Origin: Cymodocea nodosa
Lineage: Eukaryota > Streptophyta > Magnoliopsida > Alismatales > Cymodoceaceae
Length of the DNA: 64,000 nt
Direction: 5' to 3'
NCBI GenBank assembly: GCA_036874045.1
Contig: CM072336.1
Span: forward strand, 26,983,501-27,047,500
The number at the start of each line of letters is the position of its first letter. The first letter of the stretch is position 1. Both the position numbers and the translations under genes were made by a program. The notes under the pieces were generated by a model that was not told where the DNA came from, made no database searches, and saw nothing but the letters and a program-made list of their open reading frames with translations. Shown one piece after another: positions 94-60,696 of this stretch.

Positions 94-397
94 CCCTGAA
101 CATTATCCTGGAATAATCTGCCCAACTTTTTTGTATTTCTCCATGAATTTGCACTCCCAATCTTGTAAAACCTCAAGATCATCTTCACTAAGTCCATCAA
201 TGTTGTCAGTTAGGTCATCTTGATCAAAAGACATGAGAGCCAAGGCACGACTAACTTCCCTCCCGGCAAACATTGAATTTGGGGAACCAGCTCCATAATG
301 CATCCTACAGAAAACAACATTCCAAACTATACTAAACCCAAGTGTGACTTGTAAAATTATCAAATAAATTAAGGAAGCACGTAACAAAACAAAGCAT
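94..397 (-). pseudogene. duplicated second exon of the MSBP gene plus intron edge
   Basis: These 304 bases match 27805-28108 collinearly with no gaps and about five substitutions that I can count, so the copy is recent. It contains the whole second coding exon of the MSBP gene (103-304), its splice acceptor, its stop codon and about 90 bases of intron. The exon frame is open; one visible coding change is a Gly-to-Ser in the FAGREV motif. No first exon is present, so it should not make a functional protein. At 397 the identity stops exactly where reverse-strand copia polyprotein sequence begins, in the same orientation as the exon. That suggests capture by, or recombination with, a copia element (inference). 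Confidence 0.88.
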
Positions 398-1500
398 TAG
401 CAAACTGAGATATAGAAAAAAGATTTTTTGTAATACTAGAACATAAAGAACATTGTGTAAGTGTGAAATTTTATTATCTTTGCTAATTACTTTACTACGT
501 CCCATCCCATTAATGGGTAAAGATTGGCCATGAGCAACTAAAACCTTATTATTATGTAAATGAGCACAATTTTGGATGAGAGTACCTGGATTTCCGATGA
601 TATGTTGGCTCGCCCCAGAGTCCGCATACCACGTGTTGTCTTCGTTTTCATCCACGATTAAAGCGGCAAAAGCATGCGTATTTTCAGATTGACTGGAGTT
701 CTCATACTTGTGCCAGCATTCACGTGCCATATGCCCAACCTTGCCACAAATCTGGCAGGTTGGATGCTCACCTGTTGTAGTGGACAGTCCATCTCTCCCG
801 TAAGAGCCACGCCCACCAAATGCACCACCTCGGTTGTTTCTTAAGTTTGAAATGTGGTTGGCCTTCTTGATGTTGCTGAGGTGCATGGTCATGCATGGGC
901 TTTGAATTTTTGTTGCCCCCTTTTCCTTTAACGTAATATGCAACTTTAGGTGTGGCATCTTGAGTTTCGAGCTCCATCCTTTTTTCGAAATTCATCAACA
1001 TCCTCACCACCGTATCAAAGGAAGGCAAAGGAGGTCCAGTGGCTGTTGTAATCTGACTTTGATAGTCTTTGCCCAACCCTCCAAGTAACCAAAAAAACTT
1101 CATTGTGTACGTCAAGAGGCTTGCTGATCACCATCAACTTATCATAGTAATTTTTGTAACCCTTGATGTACTCAGCCGGAGAACCAAACTTCTCTCTTTT
1201 GATGTTCTATAATTGATTCACGAGATAAAAGTGTCTTTCTATATACAATTAAGCAAAATTAGTAGTAGTAATGGTTGACCAAACTTGGTGAAAAGTTTCT
1301 TGCCTGGTGGTGACGAGTCCGACGACTTCGTCACTTAGACTGCCAATAATCCACCCTTTTATAAGGGCGTCGGTGTTCTTCTAAGAACAATATCTTGGGT
1401 TAATTACATTTTTCTTGGATTTTGGGTTGTCTTCGACAAGATATTTCTCAAGGCTCATCCGAAGATGATCTCTACCATCTTCTAAAAAATTTCAAGAACA
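398..1500 (-). mobile_element. Ty1/copia gag-protease remnant
   Basis: Reverse-strand reading gives a copia gag (UBN2-like) followed by a CCHC zinc knuckle of the form CQICGKVGHMARECWHK near 710-760. Next comes the aspartic protease motif WYADSGASQHI near 600-640, then the LHNVLYV segment before the GAG-pre-integrase region. The reading frame is broken by frameshifts, for example near 440, and by in-frame stops in the gag part (1120-1500). Homology ends at 397 against the duplicated MSBP exon, and integrase, RT and RNase H are missing on this strand. It is a dead fragment of a different element from the forward-strand copia that follows. Confidence 0.88.
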
Positions 1501-1599
1501 CCAGTAATAACAGAGTTTCTAAAGGCTTAGCAGTTATTGTAACTTCACAGAACATCTGATATAATCATCTGGTGCATGCAAATAATCAAGTTGTCACAC

Positions 1600-3238
1600 A
1601 AGTTCTATCTTGATTTAATTTGTCCAAAAATAAGAGCTATGTCTCAACAAAATATAATACTTGTGTGAGCACCAAGGCTCATCGTTCGCATCTTCTACCA
1701 ATATGGAATGAATGCTCTCATCCTTTTGATGTAATTCATTCTAATGTTTGGACTTCACCTACTGTTTCTACGGATGGCTACAAATATCTTATTAGTTTCA
1801 TTGATGATTGCACTCCTTATATATGTGTCTTTTCAATGAAATCTAAAGATGAATCCTTCTCTATTTTTCAGCAATTTCAAGTCTTCGTTAATATTCAGTT
1901 TAATACTTAGATCGAGGTTATTCATGCAGCCTGGGGAGGTGAATATCATAAAATACATTCTTTGTGTAAGGATTTAGAAATCCAGCACCAAATCTTTGCT
2001 TTGTACACGCCTAGACAAAACGACACTGCAGAAAAGAAGAATTGGCATTTATTAAAAATTGCTCTTTTGCCGTTATATCATGGTAATGTGGATTTCAAGT
2101 ATTGGCCATATGCTTTCCACAATAGCTTATACTATTAACTTATTACCTTGCAAATCTTTACAATACAATATACTTTATGTTTTTTGGTTCAATAAACCTC
2201 TACCATATCTTTTTCTCAAGACCTTTGACTGTGTTTGTTTTCTCCTTTTATCATTTACTAATATACATAAACTGTAACCTCATTCAACTCAACATGTTTT
2301 TCTAGGCTGTAGTAGGAATCATCATGCCTATATCTGCCTTAATCCTAAAACTAATACTACTATAGTTACTCGACATGTTACTTTTGATGAATAAACCTTT
2401 CCTTTTATTTCAGTCAATTCTAATACTAATTCTTCTATCATAATGCTACAAGAATATAATGCCTTATTACAGACAAATTTGTGGAGCCTTGTTCCTCGTA
2501 CACCCAATATGAATTAATGTTCTTGGGTGCAAATAGATTTTTTGAGTTAAACATCATCTAGACTTGTTGTCAAGGACTTTCATCAACGACATGGTGTCAA
2601 CTATCACGATACTTTTAATCTAGTTGTTAAGCCAACAACACTTGGCCTTCTCCTCAGTCTTATTGCGACAAATCAATGGCATTTAACCCATTTAAGTGTT
2701 CAAAATGCATCATGGTTCTCTATTTGAAAATGTTTACATAATGCAACCAACATGTTTTATTGATCCTTAGAGAAAAGATTATGTTTGCAAACTTCACAAA
2801 TCATTATAGGAGCTAAAACAAACCCCACAAGGTTGGTTTCGTAAACTTTAAAGTTTTCTGCTTGATTTTGGGTTTCACTCTTCTATCACTGATACATTTC
2901 TTTTTATCCATAGAAATGGTTCAGATTTGCTATATTTTCTTATCTATGTTGATGACATTCTATTAATCAGTAAAAATATTCACTTGCAAAATTCTTTTCT
3001 TGTTGCTATTAGCAATGCTTTTCCAACTAAAAATTTGGACACTCCTAAATACTTTCTTAGTATTGAACTCCATCAAACTAATGACGGGATTTATCTCTCT
3101 CAGAAAAAGTATGTTACTTATCTTCTTCTAAAGACGAATCTTTTAAATGGTAAACCAATGAGTACACCAATGGCTACTATGTCTATCTTTAAGCATCAAG
3201 GTGATCCTTTATCTAATCCTACTCTATATAGATAAGTG
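1600..3238 (+). mobile_element. Ty1/copia integrase-reverse transcriptase remnant
   Basis: Forward-strand reading shows the copia integrase core start (PFDVIHSNVWTSP, then GYKYLISFIDDCT) at 1680-1830. Further integrase pieces with stops follow to about 2400. RT then runs from about 2480, with the catalytic motif YVDDILL at 2943-2963, up to a stop at 3235. Many stops and frameshifts break it. Its opposite orientation to the gag remnant immediately to the left shows two separate elements, or an inversion, meeting near 1.5-1.6 kb. No LTRs are recognised on either side. Confidence 0.87.
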
Positions 3239-3985
3239 ACACAGTGAAAGTAAGCAGCCTCGGACTCCACTGAGGACAAGCAGCTCAGAATCTACCAAGA
3301 CGAGAAGTTCATTGGCTGGACCTGTAAATACTAGTTGTTCTAATTATGGAACAAAAAGGGTTGATGTCCCCCCCCTCTTGTTACATTACACTCCTTTATA
3401 AAAGGAAAGAAAGTTGTTACATTGAGATTGAAATTAAAATGGCCATTACCAATAGTAACTACAACCTGAACGACCAACTGACACCTTCTTCTGTAATGAC
3501 TCTTCGTCTTCTTCATCTTGTCTCTTTAATTACGCTGTCAATTACTTGTCCTATGTTAGGTGACCCGTCCTTTGGGAAATTCGTCCTCAAGCTTTTGCAG
3601 TGCTTCCCTCCGCATGAGGAGGATAATTTAGCAGCTTCTGATAGGGAACCTTTCTTTTCCTAAGAACACCATGACTAGATTAGTAGATCTCCTTCGAAAG
3701 TTCTTTTTTGTCTATATTGGTCATCAGTCACCTTAATTATATTAGGTATAGGACTTTTTGATGCTTTCATGTACTCCTTGTTGAATGATGCAAATATCAC
3801 TTATTAGTTGCTTGACGTTAGGTATCGTCATAGGTAGAGGGGCTAACTCCACCACATGTTTTGGCAACCGTCCTGTTAACACTTAACTCTAAGATCTAAT
3901 GATTAGTTAAGTTTGTTGGATGTCAGATTGTCCTTTTCATCCATTATGTTTATCTCATCTTATCCTTTTTTGTTCTCACCTAAGA
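3239..3985. other. gene-free stretch, possible LTR debris
   Basis: No gene recognised. A 105-residue open frame at 3346-3663 resembles no family I know. A TATAAAAGG box near 3395 and a short GAGGACGAA-type motif on the reverse strand near 3585 are the kind of sequence found around gypsy LTRs, but no paired repeat is visible, so the assignment is weak. Confidence 0.3.
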
Positions 3986-4680
3986 TAATTAATTAAATCA
4001 CATAAAATACTTAATCAAAACATTTAACTAAATTATTGAAAATATTTATTTAAAACATTTAAATCACCAATAACACTTAATCACTTAAAAACACCGAATT
4101 TAACAATTAAATCACTTAATTAAGATGCTATTTAATCAAACCATCTAATCAAATGACATATTCAAATCAATTACTTACTTAATTAAATCATTTATAACAA
4201 CTATAAAAATACTTAAATCACTCAATCTAATTATTTACTCCTTAATCAAATCCTTAAATTATTTAATTTAGTTTTTAAAAACTTAATATAATAAATCCTC
4301 GAATCACTCAATTTAACCCTTAAATTAGAGCCTTAAGACATCAATTTAATCCTTAGTTAATCCCTAAAACACTTAAATTAATCCCTAACCAAGTCTTTAA
4401 AATACTTAATTAAATCCTTATAACATTCAAATTAAATCTTTAAAACACATAATTCTTAAATCAATTAATCTTTAATTAAATCCTTAAAAGACTTAATCAA
4501 ATCCTTAATTAATCATCAAAATGATTAATTTAATCAATAATAAAATTGTTAAAATACTTAATTTAATCCTTAAAACATTTAATCTTTAATTAATCCCTAA
4601 AAATCCTCTTTTTTACTCTTAAAAAACCCTCTAAAATCCTCCTTTTTATTCATATTTAATCTCAACCGTCCATCCTCCAT
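3986..4680. repeat. degenerate AT-rich tandem-like tract (TTAATCAAATC family)
   Basis: About 700 bases are built from shuffled short words such as CTTAATTAAATC, CCTTAAAACACTTAA and AATCCTTAAA, repeated dozens of times with no fixed period. The tract has almost no G on the forward strand. It reads as an old, slipped microsatellite-like expansion, probably inside a retrotransposon LTR or untranslated region (inference). Confidence 0.6.
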
Positions 4681-6199
4681 TCAACACCTAGATGACACTC
4701 TTTAAAATGTTTTAATGTTAATCACTCATTCAAATCAAATAGCTTTGATTCAATAACTTTAAGTTACTCATTCGTTATCCCTTTAATCTCTATCCGATGA
4801 CACATATTTCACTTCATCTCTGTCCTTGGATCATTTAAAACCTTTGATCCAATAGCTCACACAAAACTTTCATCTCTATCGTTGGATCTTTCCCTTTTAA
4901 TCCTAATCATCAATTGCTTATGTTGTCGTCTGCCTGCATTGTCATCTTCTCCAACACCGACAACCGTCGTTTAGCTGTTCACTTGCTTGACATCATTGCT
5001 CTACCTTAAAAGCCGACAAATCATGTTGTTTTCTCCCCACTGCCCTCTCTCCTGTACCTGCTTGCCCTTTCCATGCATGTTAATTACCTCCTACAGCTTG
5101 TTGGCTTGTGGATCAACCATCCATTCATCAAATAGCCCATCGTTGGCCACTTTTCCAAAACTTTTAACATTGCTTTTTTAATCTTTGACCAACTATTTCT
5201 CTCTCTGTTGAGCTATTTTGTACGGCTGCTTGATCGATCGTCAAATGCATCAGAAGGCGACTAAGCATGTCAGAGACAACTGTTGAATGACCTATCGTCT
5301 TCTACCGACAAGCCTCTGTGAAACCCCCCAGATCCTTTATTTCAAAGCACTCACTCAACACCATCAGAACCCTCAAGTTTTCAGCATGCGAACAACTCCA
5401 TTTTGATACTCAAAAACCCTTTTTTTTCACCTAACCTTCACCAACGAACTTCTAGTGGATAGTAGCAGTTTCTGATCATCAAAACTCAAAGGTAAAGATA
5501 CGTTTGGAACGACCTAAATGTCTTTAACTCATGTCTAAGCATATTACCATCTAAAACTCGCATCCTTGCACTCCTCTACTGACCTTTGATGGTTTTTTGG
5601 GTGACCTCCGATGGCTCTTTAACAACCTTTTGCTAATTTCTCTTTTAATTTCAACATCTATCAAGATTAATCAGTGGATATTCTATCTAAAATTAAGGTT
5701 GACATTTAGATTCCAATGAGTCACAATCTTAATTTCGTTAAAATAACTTCACCTTCAAAGGTTTTAATTAGATAAACCCTCTAAACTTTGTCGATTCTTT
5801 ACCAATTTTTGATTCTTGTTTTTCTTTTTATCTTTGTTTCAAATCAGAGGGTAGGGTATTCATTCAAATCAACCATTCGGTCATTTAGGGTTTATCTAAA
5901 TTTTCAAGATTTTCTAGTTTTCTTTTTAATCGTTTAATTGCATTTCTTTCCTAGTTCATTTTCAAATTCCTAGTTCTACCATAGAATTAATTTATTGGTC
6001 TATCTTTAGAATTTTGATTTCATTGTGAAATTAGTTTATCAGTTTAATCTCTGGAGTTTCACTGAATGGTTTTATCATAAAAATATTTTTCGTTTATGAT
6101 TTTGCGAATCTTTTCTTGTCAAATATCGATGAAAAATTTAGGAGTTCTGATATTATCAAACATGTCATTTTCATAATGTATCTTTATCTTTATTTTCGT
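4681..6199. other. gene-free AT-rich stretch
   Basis: No coding family is recognised on either strand. A short open frame at 4987-5181 has ordinary composition and no motif. The sequence is C- and T-rich on this strand and continues the skew of the preceding tract, so it may belong to the same long repeat element. Confidence 0.4.
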
Positions 6200-7310
6200 T
6201 TAGCCTGTTTTGCATGTTTTTTAAATGCATTTACTCCACGTATATTAACCGATGCTCACTCATATGTGCATTCAACCATGCATTCACCTGCTTATGTGCT
6301 CATACATGCTTCACTCATTTTCATAATGCACACAACTAATATGTTCCCATTTTCATGCTCTCATATTGCACACAATTACATGTTTACAAATGCACTCATG
6401 TACTACACTTATCCATGCTTACAAAAGTACCTTCGTATTACATTCATCACTCATTCCATATAGTTTTCATGATGTATCATTCATAAAAACACTCATTCAA
6501 CGTAACTTTTATGTTATATCATTTATATGATAACATCACTCATTCTATATAACTCCCATCATACACATGTTCGTGTATTAATCCACTTCATTCACTTCCA
6601 TCGATCCTATGTTTCATTCTTCACGCACAACATGTTCATGTATTGATTCTTTTCAATGCACTTTCATGCTAGACTTCATCTACTACACAATACACTCATT
6701 TCACTTACTTTCAATCTATATTTCACCCATCACATATGTTAATGCATCAAATCATCTCATAATATTGCACTTTCGTGCATGCCATGTTGCACTTCATAAG
6801 AGAGCATCCCATGCATTATTATGTGATTAATCATGCATTATTATCTTAATTACTTATACCTTCTAATCATGCATTACCACATTAAATCTTATGTCTTAAT
6901 TATGTTTGATCATGCATTATTATGACTAATCATATATCTTAATTATAATGAATCATGCATTATCATGTTTAATCATATACCTTGATCACACTTAATCATG
7001 CATTAAATGTGCTCTTAATCATGCATTATCATATTTAACCATACCTTTTAATCATATTGAATTGTCTTAATCATGATTAATCATAATCTAACCATGCTTA
7101 ATTATACATTAATCATGCATTATTAGTTTTAAGTATATCATAAACATAGCATAATCATGCTTAAATATTCTCTATTCACATCATACATCATGCCTCCTAC
7201 ATCGTACGATATATTATGTGTGCATACATGACACAAACTTACACACATGATACATATTCACACACACACTTACATGTTGCATCTATACATACATATTGCA
7301 TACTATATAT
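6200..7310. repeat. CATGCAT-rich degenerate repeat block, first copy
   Basis: The block is dominated by variants of TCATGCATTAT, TAATCATGCATTA and CACTCATATGCAT. It is densest between 6800 and 7150, where ATCATGCATTA recurs roughly every 20 to 40 bases. CATGCAT is itself nearly palindromic. Open frames within it (6116-6463, 6609-6830) are by-products of low complexity. A related block follows at 8761-9090. Confidence 0.6.
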
Positions 7311-8760
7311 AAGGAAGCTTTGACGAGAATCGATGACTCTCAGTAAATTTTAGTGGTGAAAGGTGATGCAGTCAGTGATTTCATGTGGGAAGAAGCAGCA
7401 AACGTCCATTGTCACAGTCGATTGAGTAGTGCCAGAGCTTTCCATTCCCTTGTTGTGAGGTTCGTCGGTAGTGTGCGTACTTGTGCTTTCGATTTCCGAC
7501 GACTGAAGTTGAGCTAAGGAAATCTAGTGAGTTTAAGTGGGGTTCAGCAGTTGGTCAGTAGAGAAGAAGAAGAAGAAGAAGAAGAAGAAGAAGAAGAAGA
7601 GGAAAGGAAGAATATAAAAAGAAAAATAGAAAGAAAGAAAGGAGGATAAAGTAAAATAGAAAATAATATTGGGCTTTTTGCAACTTTTTTTTTTAAGTCT
7701 TTCTTTCATTTAGTCTAAAATTATCTTATTTGAGAATAATGCATGATTATAATGGTATGTATTTTAAATTTATAAGTATATGCATATTAGTGTTTATGGT
7801 ATATTTATTTTAATTTCAGCATCATCTGATCATCATGTGTATGCAAATATTAAAATCTTACATAACTTTTAGAGAATAATGCATATTATGGATTTTACAG
7901 TATATATGAGAAATTCATGATTATTTGCATGACATGCATAATTGTTATTGACTATGGAAGGCTTATTTATTTTGCATGTGATTATTTGACATTAAAGGTA
8001 ATTATGGTAGAAATTACATGTCATTATTTGGGTCTATACTTATTTAAATGAATGAATGTGTAACTATGAAACCTAGTCACATGGGTCTAGTACTATGGTA
8101 TTGTATATAATAGAGACTAAATGATACACTTAACCTTATCTTGGGCATTTGAGATATCTGACTTAATCATAGAGTGATATATGATAGTTAGACCTTACTA
8201 TAGGGTGTATAATATATAGTCATAGTTAAATTAAATAATGAAATATATGAGATATTGTGACCCAAGTTATTATTGTAATTCACAAGATTTATTTTTATTT
8301 GTGATAAGATTGCATACTTTATATTATTACATTAAGTTGACAATACAATTTTCCTTTTTACATGCATAATATATTAATATCAATTTTATTTTAGACTTAT
8401 GATAAATTAACTTATTAGACTTTAGTTAACATGTTGTTATTGTTCTTTTTTAGATACTTGGTAGACATTGAGGGTGAGCATGAGTAAGACAAGATGTATT
8501 AGTCACCCTTTTGTTAACTACAATAAATAAATTGTGAATAATAGATATTTTGATGTGTACCTTATTTTGTATTTTTACTTGGAGTTAAATTGTAAATAAC
8601 TTTTATTATTTCTATTATATTTTTTATTTATAAATATTTAATTTTTTTGTTGTTATATCTCTTTAATAGGTATCAGTCTTGTAATATTAAAGAAGATAGT
8701 TTTTCACGTGACAAAATTTTATTTATATATGTTTTCTTCTCTTTACTATTACAACGATTA
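7311..8760. other. AT-rich insert between CATGCAT blocks, LTR-like
   Basis: No gene. The stretch separates two compositionally similar CATGCAT-rich blocks and holds a GAA microsatellite. Its right part resembles plant gypsy LTR ends in general character (long T-rich stretches), and GGTATCAGTC near 8670 resembles the start of a tRNA-Met primer binding site. No paired LTR was found, so this is only a suggestion. Confidence 0.35.
7561..7602. repeat. (GAA)n microsatellite
   Basis: About thirteen consecutive GAA/AGA triplets with no interruption, followed by a purine-rich, A- and G-only stretch to about 7655. Confidence 0.95.
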
Positions 8761-59582: not shown

Positions 59583-60035
59583 CTATTGCCAACAATTGTC
59601 ATTGTACCATATCTAGTAAGGGTACAACACCCATTACCTCCTCTATGCACCTTAAAAAATTCTTTGTCCTAAAATTTTCTGTTAATTTATTATCTATCAA
59701 TACTATTACTAAACAACTATATTGCTCATGCACCTTTTCCTTTCATTATATTTTTCAAGATTTGCAGACAAAGAAGAAGATTGGTTTGAACCATAAATAA
59801 GGTCACAATGTTTACATCTTGGTCAAAGATGATATACTTAAAGCTTAGTTGTGGAGGATAATTCTAGTGATACTATTCTTCTTTCGCATCAATGCTTTAG
59901 TCATCCATTTTGTCGCAAACTCTAGGATGCTCCTCCTTGGGTTTCAATTCCTTTTGTTTTGTGTCAATTGTGCATTATAGGTAAATAGTTTCATGCTACC
60001 TATAAAAGTCATGAGTTAGCTACAACCTCTAAGTT
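59583..60035 (+). mobile_element. copia protease-integrase linker and GAG-pre-integrase
   Basis: Copia reading resumes: ISSKGTTPITSSMHLKKFFV, NLLSINTITKQLYCSC, FQDLQTKKKIGL and, after stops, a HQCFSHPFC region corresponding to the His-containing pre-integrase zinc-binding block. It then stops at SHELATTSK, where the SINE is inserted. Confidence 0.85.
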
Positions 60036-60330
60036 TTTTTTTTTTTTTTTTTTTAATTAAGGGTCCTCCTTAGACACTCAAACGGCTTATTATATACCAA
60101 AAGTATCCAAGGAGACGAAAACTTGTAAGAGACCTTGTTAGGCCCACTTTGGTAAGTGATGCACACAACTACAACTTGTCAATGCTTGAGCAGAGCCAAC
60201 ACTACTGCCCATAGGCACTGCACGAAAACTTCCCAAGTGGTCACCCATCTTGGTTCTGCTTCCGTCTAAACACAATTAACTTCAGATTTCTTATAGGAGC
60301 CAGTGTTTGGTAGTAGATGTAAATGCACCT
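60036..60330 (-). mobile_element. 5S rRNA-derived SINE (SINE3-like) inserted in copia
   Basis: On the minus strand the element starts at 60330. Its first 115 bases (60216-60330) align without any gap to plant 5S rRNA from nucleotide 1, at about two-thirds identity by my count from memory of the 5S consensus. Best preserved are CTGAAGTTAATTGTGTT (box A region) and AAGATGGGTGACCACTTGGG (box C region), the internal RNA polymerase III promoter. About 160 bases of unrelated tail follow (60055-60215) and then about 20 A (T tract 60034-60054). Direct repeats ACCTCTAAGTT at 60025-60035 and 60331-60341 flank it, and excision rejoins the host codons TSKLFD. Length, 5S head, poly(A) and target duplication fit a retroposed SINE. 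A Cassandra LTR is excluded as the simplest reading, because there is no LTR terminus and the 5' end coincides with 5S nucleotide 1. Confidence 0.83.
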
Positions 60331-60696
60331 ACCTCTAAGTTATTTGATATCATCCATTATGACATTTGGAAACCCTTTCGAGTCACATCTATTTCTAACT
60401 TTCATTATTATATTATATTTGTTGATTTTTCTCGTGTATCCTAATTGTATCTCTTAAAGAATTGTCAAAACATTATCAATGTTATTCACATGTTTTTAAC
60501 GAAGTTTAAACCCAATTTGCTTTCACTCAAAATTTTTCAAACTAACAATACTCTTGAATTTTTTCAAATTGAAGACCAATCTTTTAGTGTTGATCATAAT
60601 ATCTTGCATCAAACTACTTATGCACATACATCTCAACAAAATGAAGTGGTTGAGCATAAACATCACCACATTTTAAATGTCACTCATACCTTATTA
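60331..60696 (+). mobile_element. copia integrase core, part
   Basis: The forward frame reads FDIIHYDIWKPFRVTSISNF, then IIFVDFSRVS, LKIFQTNNTLEFFQ, HQTTYAHTSQQNEVVEHK and HILNVTHTLL. These are the catalytic-core landmarks of copia integrase (IHxDIW, TDNxxEF with D changed to N, PQQNGVxER). It is interrupted at ACCTTATTA (60688-60696) by a LINE. Confidence 0.92.

Follow-up and report, generated by a model that had tools for sequence, protein, structure and literature searches.

Evidence for a telomere-enriched SINE family with a 5S rRNA-derived head in the land plant Cymodocea nodosa

To our knowledge, plant SINEs are tRNA-headed, and the one plant mobile element that carries a 5S sequence, Cassandra, is an LTR element. 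5S-headed SINEs are known from vertebrates (SINE3, AmnSINE1), Lepidoptera (HaSE3, PxSE4/5) and Aspergillus fumigatus (5S-related SINEs). Those of vertebrates pair with CR1-group or RSg-1 LINEs, and many plant SINEs have a poly(A) and no homology to LINEs (PMC3747384). Cassandra is likewise a plant mobile element that uses a 5S promoter (PMC10886601, PMC10853983). A 2024 paper on plant Cassandra speaks of animals where it comes to SINEs that have acquired genic promoters (PMC10853983), and the Helenus/Ajax paper compares animal SINE3, with Cassandra as the carrier of 5S in plants (PMC10886601). A 2010 paper counts 5S-like sequences among SINE3 'including plants', citing the Cassandra paper (PMC3095306). 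No plant 5S-headed SINE was found in the openly licensed literature searched.

Non-LTR elements lodged in telomere repeats include TRAS and SART in insects, Zepp in Chlorella, MoTeR in a fungus, GilM and GilT in Giardia, and Tx1 in the anole. Zepp is the only one from Viridiplantae named in a 2023 paper (PMC10088271), and neither a land-plant telomeric LINE nor a land-plant SINE/LINE telomere arrangement was found in the openly licensed literature searched.

The family described here shares with the 5S-headed SINEs of animals and fungi a 5S head with internal Pol III promoter words, a short length and a multicopy state, and it differs from them by its plant host, its poly(A) end and a tail without any other sequence known to Rfam. 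It is as short as the tRNA-headed plant SINEs (p-SINE1, Au and others), but has a 5S head and no tRNA. Cassandra, in contrast, is an LTR element with a primer-binding site, and no such pattern was found for this family. As in the known telomere LINEs, insertions are found in telomere repeats; here, however, a land-plant L1-type LINE (EN, RT, zf-RVT) and a SINE occupy like sites, and both are also dispersed.

In the window, that is, the whole stretch of 64,000 nucleotides that was analysed, the insert lies on the minus strand. The original prediction of a 5S head complete from nucleotide 1, a poly(A) and a perfect 11-bp duplication was borne out by the Rfam model RF00001 and by the exactness of the repeats. 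The features are:

60330 to 60036, minus strand: whole insert (5S-like head, tail and poly(A))
60331 to 60341, minus strand: 5' copy of the 11-bp target site duplication (AACTTAGAGGT on this strand), exact
60212 to 60330, minus strand: 5S rRNA-derived head, complete from nucleotide 1 (RF00001, 39.3 bits, model positions 1-120)
inside the head at 60212 to 60330, minus strand: internal control region (box A, intermediate element, box C)
60055 to 60211, minus strand: family-specific tail in its short form, about 157 bases, about 84-90% identical to other full-span copies
about 60073 to 60129, minus strand: one unit of the 65-bp type in this tail
60036 to 60054, minus strand: poly(A) of 19 A (21 counting the first two bases of the duplication)
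60025 to 60035, minus strand: 3' copy of the target site duplication, exact
60342 to 60500 (approximate extent), plus strand: remnant in the flank with FDIIHYDIW, a motif resembling copia integrase; stops already break this remnant

On the plus strand, the duplication reads ACCTCTAAGTT at 60025-60035 and 60331-60341 and has no third occurrence in the window, and the poly(A) of the minus strand appears as a T-run at 60036-60054. The head gives the only Rfam match over cut-off in the whole window (RF00001 5S_rRNA, 60330-60212, model positions 1-120 of 120), with a score of 39.3 bits that is barely above the cut-off of 38. Its local alignment to a plant 5S sequence scores 89, as compared with a mean of 17.8 and a maximum of 34 in 1000 shuffles, so that a chance 5S match is rejected; over the first 60 kb of the window, both strands taken together, the best score of the same alignment is 27. 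The match had been predicted over 115 bases. It is indeed collinear from nucleotide 1, but its true span is about 119 bases and it is weak, 79 of 119 positions (66%) being identical to the host's own 5S genes. The box A and box C promoter words were correctly recognised (13/15 and 17/18 bases identical to the host 5S, respectively), within box limits taken from work on Arabidopsis. As for the tail, expected to be about 160 bases long and unique, it is present with about 157 bases but is not unique, as it is the short form of a longer, internally repeated family tail.

Excision of the insert had been said to restore a copia reading frame exactly. The net insertion is indeed of 306 bases (3 x 102) and, when the flanks are translated separately, the duplicated TSK codons stand in one frame on each (...HELATTSK / TSKLFDIIHYDIWKPF...). 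The left flank, however, already carries stop codons, and the host element is therefore broken anyway. A Pfam search with a 37-aa piece of the flank gave zero matches, and the copia label goes back to an integrase-like motif. Elsewhere in the window (332-958, minus strand), a 208-aa frame contains a CCHC zinc-knuckle-like motif and is probably another retrotransposon gag remnant.

The 5' end of the insert and the junction between its head and its tail recur in the host genome (374.6 Mb in 28 contigs). The 29-nt 5' end is found at 369 places with at most three mismatches (71 exact) and the 5S-tail junction at 213 places with at most three mismatches, the reversed-pattern control giving 0 in both cases; the second copy with the same junction, looked for in the light of the prediction, thus exists many times over. 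A DNA search with the insert yielded 860 first-look candidates, of which the best 40 were scored. From a non-random sample of 98 loci, made up of the best DNA matches and of the 5'-end places with 0 or 1 mismatch, 92 gave 104 5'-complete copies. The six loci that failed the copy filter comprise two whose sequence departs from that of the family inside or behind the head, one internally deleted, one running into a LINE, and two that look complete but are diverged. The first six bases are AGGTGC in 92 of the 104 copies, and a poly(A) was called by script in 91, although four of these calls fall over 500 nt away from the head, and in one case or more (L096_930) the poly(A) is that of a neighbour. 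The distance from head to poly(A) is most often 401-402 (44/91 copies). In long copies, part of the tail is a tandem repeat with a period of 65 bp (2.6 units in L030), and element positions 202-274 match again further downstream.

Among 55 full-length copies, the pairwise difference has a median of 8.3% and a maximum of 35%, and the closest pair, one telomeric and one dispersed copy, differs by 0.5%. As the differences span this range, the family has both old and recent copies. The window copy groups with L014, L026, one L066 copy and two L087 copies (SH-aLRT 97); its end branch is 0.12, it is at most 88% identical to any row of the tree, and its best stretch match elsewhere in the genome reaches 90%. 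It is a diverged short-form member and not the family's best example, and its perfect duplication and clean poly(A) are by themselves no proof of youth.

Several observations were made alongside. Relatives about 75-77% identical to the window copy lie next to normal copies in L034 (1052-1204) and L020 (162-311), which indicates that further subfamilies exist. In L083 and L094, the copy begins with a SINE head but departs from the family inside the 5S part or directly behind it, which could reflect truncation, a later insertion or the existence of other 5S-headed families. At 1450-2658, L138 contains plastid DNA inserted in the nuclear genome, with an rbcL frame open over 402 aa; in the PDB, a nuclear rbcL copy comes closest to 1wdd, with 5wsk and 5iu0 nearly level. 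In bacterial and archaeal contigs, a scan for the 5' end gave one match, from a bacterial contig that lacks the remainder of the element; in viral contigs it gave zero.

The 5S nature of the head was reassessed in other copies. Of 20 further loci, 16 pass the Rfam 5S cut-off and four, including L030 at 34.0, miss it, which, together with the scores of the window copy, upholds the significance of the predicted 5S match. In the loci tested, 5S is the only Rfam family over cut-off, and Rfam finds nothing besides 5S below E 1 that would account for the tail. ARAGORN detects 0 tRNAs in each of eight loci, and a tRNA origin of the head is rejected on this ground. When the head majority is compared with the host 5S (a reference of ten loci), 83 of 119 positions are identical and the other 36 differ in a shared way; identity reaches 41/48 at positions 50-97, the control region, against 42/71 elsewhere (Fisher P 0.002). 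Such drift of the head outside the promoter fits a mobile element that needs only its promoter, although the better-kept control region is support rather than proof, 5S genes being unevenly conserved themselves. Judged from its sequence, the Pol III promoter of the head is conserved. TTTT is absent in 44 of the 55 full-length copies (82% in a slightly differently cut set), as compared with about 19% of same-dinucleotide shuffles. The window copy has TTTT at three places and, because of these runs, has probably lost its transcription.

The host 5S genes used here (L047-L056, contig C1, about 9.26-11.3 Mb) begin GTGTGCGACC, and the best 47 scored of 10838 host 5S candidates are all on one contig. 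They are clearly unlike the usual angiosperm 5S.

The 91 copies with a poly(A) comprise 66 outside telomere-type repeats and 25 within. A duplication of at least 8 nt is found in 57 of the 66 non-telomeric copies, as against a mean of 1.04 and a maximum of 5 for shuffled flanks; the script detects none in the remaining nine, some of which show one by eye. Duplications range over 8-20 nt and are mostly of 10-16 bp. At the 54 readable of the 57 non-telomeric sites, A is the first base of the duplication in 91% and the second in 83%. The preceding base is C or T in 92% of non-telomeric sites. The lack of A at this base is in part a product of the script, whose matches run on over A's up into the poly(A); the A-run as such is no product of the script. 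Variable-length duplications that start with an A-run are a feature of LINE-type insertion, and the family displays it. The telomere-repeat target, CT|AAACCC, fits this general A-run target.

The prediction of a multicopy plant SINE family with a 5S head is thus supported by the shared 5' end, the shared junction, the poly(A) and the duplications. We conclude with high confidence that the insert is one diverged copy of a 5S-headed SINE family of several hundred copies, SINE3-type by architecture, in a land plant. That it could instead be a one-off 5S processed pseudogene joined to unique sequence is scarcely credible: a poly(A) and a duplication alone would fit such an origin, but the 5S-tail junction common to 213 places rejects a single pseudogene, and the shared differences of the head majority from the host 5S (36/119 sites) also speak against it.

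We also regard as highly improbable that the insert is a piece or retrocopy of a Cassandra-type TRIM, the RNA of which would also start in the 5S of the 5' LTR. Cassandra RNA does start in its own 5S sequence, and Cassandra is widespread in land plants, according to the Helenus/Ajax paper (PMC10886601). Two gapped patterns leading from 5S box C to the tRNA-Met primer site, with two spacing ranges, nevertheless gave 0 matches in the genome, and on this basis a Cassandra origin is rejected; since only an exact TGGTATCAGAGC is recognised by these patterns, they could overlook a diverged Cassandra. The Cassandra pattern also gave 0 matches in viral contigs. Moreover, the family's copies carry a poly(A) and long duplications (8-20 nt), whereas the target duplication of Cassandra is of 5 bp. 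The tail is therefore not confined to Cassandra LTRs, which had been envisaged as an objection to a SINE.

For this SINE family, the following mechanism can be proposed. RNA polymerase III would be recruited through the internal control region of the head by TFIIIA/TFIIIC, as is established for 5S genes, would start at head nucleotide 1, and would presumably read through the terminator-poor tail to a stop signal in the flank. The endonuclease of a LINE, putatively of the L1 clade, would nick the strand opposite the A-run, the insertion products being what is observed; the poly(A) of the SINE RNA would then prime on the T run thus exposed, the SINE RNA would be copied by the reverse transcriptase of the LINE, and a duplication, in most cases of 10-16 bp, would remain. 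These enzymes would most likely come from an L1 lineage that, like the SINE, inserts at dispersed sites and into CCCTAAA telomere arrays. Pol III transcription, L1-driven insertion, the identity of the LINE partner and present activity are all what we infer from sequence.

Within 50 kb of contig ends, 18 of the 71 copies with an exact 5' end are found, with 0.53 expected if they were uniformly distributed (in this and the later end counts, distances are taken from both ends for 21 of the 28 contigs and from the low-numbered end alone for the other seven). All 18 are in one orientation, their sense strand being the CCCTAAA strand. Telomere-type repeats lie just upstream of 25 of the 91 poly(A) copies, and in 15 of these 25 the bases after the poly(A) are CCCTAA. 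These telomeric copies could derive from a few subtelomeric blocks spread by recombination, with no real telomere preference, as segment exchange occurs between subtelomeres and some neighbouring telomeric copies pair (L015_2120 with L015_8845, L087_600 with L087_899). This is unlikely in our view. The 20 telomeric copies on the tree require 17 label changes, close to the shuffled mean of 18.2 (130 of 500 shuffles are as low), and thus lie scattered among dispersed copies, which speaks for many separate insertions, within the limits of a tree of which 3/79 inner branches are well supported and the starred branches alone force two changes. In addition, 12 different 4-nt 5' junction words are found among the 25 telomeric copies, yet CCCTAA follows the poly(A) in 15 of them.

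Ten contig ends were probed: five bear long TTTAGGG-type arrays, four are unreadable and one has SINE- and LINE-like pieces instead. Canonical arrays thus remain at ends, and the elements sit further inward. The start of contig C5 (L126, 1-1000) carries, in place of a telomere array, pieces resembling the SINE head and tail and, by eye, a stretch like LINE ORF1.

Sequence of L1-type LINEs, in which endonuclease, RT, zf-RVT and DUF4283 domains are recognised, is also present in the subtelomeric loci L015 and L017; the L015 LINE extends over about 1570-7664 on the reverse complement of the locus, with its ORF2 in several pieces. When its 3' 400 bp are searched for, 24 of the best 40 scored of 76 candidates lie within 50 kb of ends (0.3 expected), all 24 in the same orientation. 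Among ten LINE loci opened, L128, L129, L132 and L137 join a poly(A) to CCCTAA, L130, L131, L134, L135 and L136 are in ordinary DNA, and the match of L133 stops short. With 18/71 SINE places and 24/40 LINE places near ends, SINE and LINE are telomere-enriched but not telomere-confined. For zf-RVT, 53 of the best 150 scored of 1925 candidates are less than 50 kb away from an end, as against 1.1 expected; they are spread over 25 distinct ends, and 50 of the 53 are in one orientation, these counts being of pooled matches from all L1 families. Frame lengths among these matches can be inflated by stop-free telomere repeats, but four of the matches lie in identical 1117-aa frames without stop. In L068, which is telomeric, the SINE runs on the minus strand, from about 930 downwards, straight into LINE RT-like coding sequence with no poly(A) between; this join is either a template switch or a nested event, the LINE being read by eye.

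Because telomeric and dispersed sites, junction and orientation are common to both, the telomeric L1 LINE lineage is the best candidate for the partner that mobilises the SINE, a candidacy to which we lean slightly and which falls short of proof. BLAST of the SINE tail against the LINE gives chance-level matches only, and the comparison of the SINE with LINE 3' ends gives P 0.06 for short ends picked by eye; no similarity is claimed. Template recognition is considered relaxed in many L1 LINEs of flowering plants (PMC3747384), so that a missing shared 3' end neither excludes a LINE partner nor identifies one. The SINE could alternatively be driven by another L1 LINE of ordinary A-run specificity, its telomeric copies merely surviving better. 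The fit of CT|AAACCC to the general target and the lack of a 3' end common to the SINE and the telomeric LINE make this tenable, if somewhat doubtful, since the target array, the orientation and the poly(A)-CCCTAA junction are common to the SINE and the telomeric LINE, both of which are also dispersed. The site data are compatible with both the telomeric LINE and another L1 as partner.

Whether this land plant harbours a matched telomere-seeking pair, in which a SINE with a 5S promoter lives as a parasite of an L1-type LINE lineage that includes members with a long uninterrupted ORF2 frame, is a question on which we stand evenly divided. The same balance holds for the fuller picture, in which both would have inserted repeatedly (the SINE recently) and in one orientation into CCCTAAA, with their poly(A) joined to CCCTAA, canonical arrays persisting at chromosome ends.

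If this is true, plants would have their first 5S-headed SINE and, as far as known, a telomeric target would be described for a SINE for the first time. Cassandra has been suggested to originate from a SINE3 jumping into an LTR, in the Helenus/Ajax paper (PMC10886601), and a plant 5S SINE would supply the kind of donor that such an origin has so far lacked. The finding also raises the questions of how repeated insertion of LINEs and SINEs is tolerated by a telomere of the TTTAGGG type, and of whether a LINE endonuclease gained telomere specificity from an ordinary L1 target.
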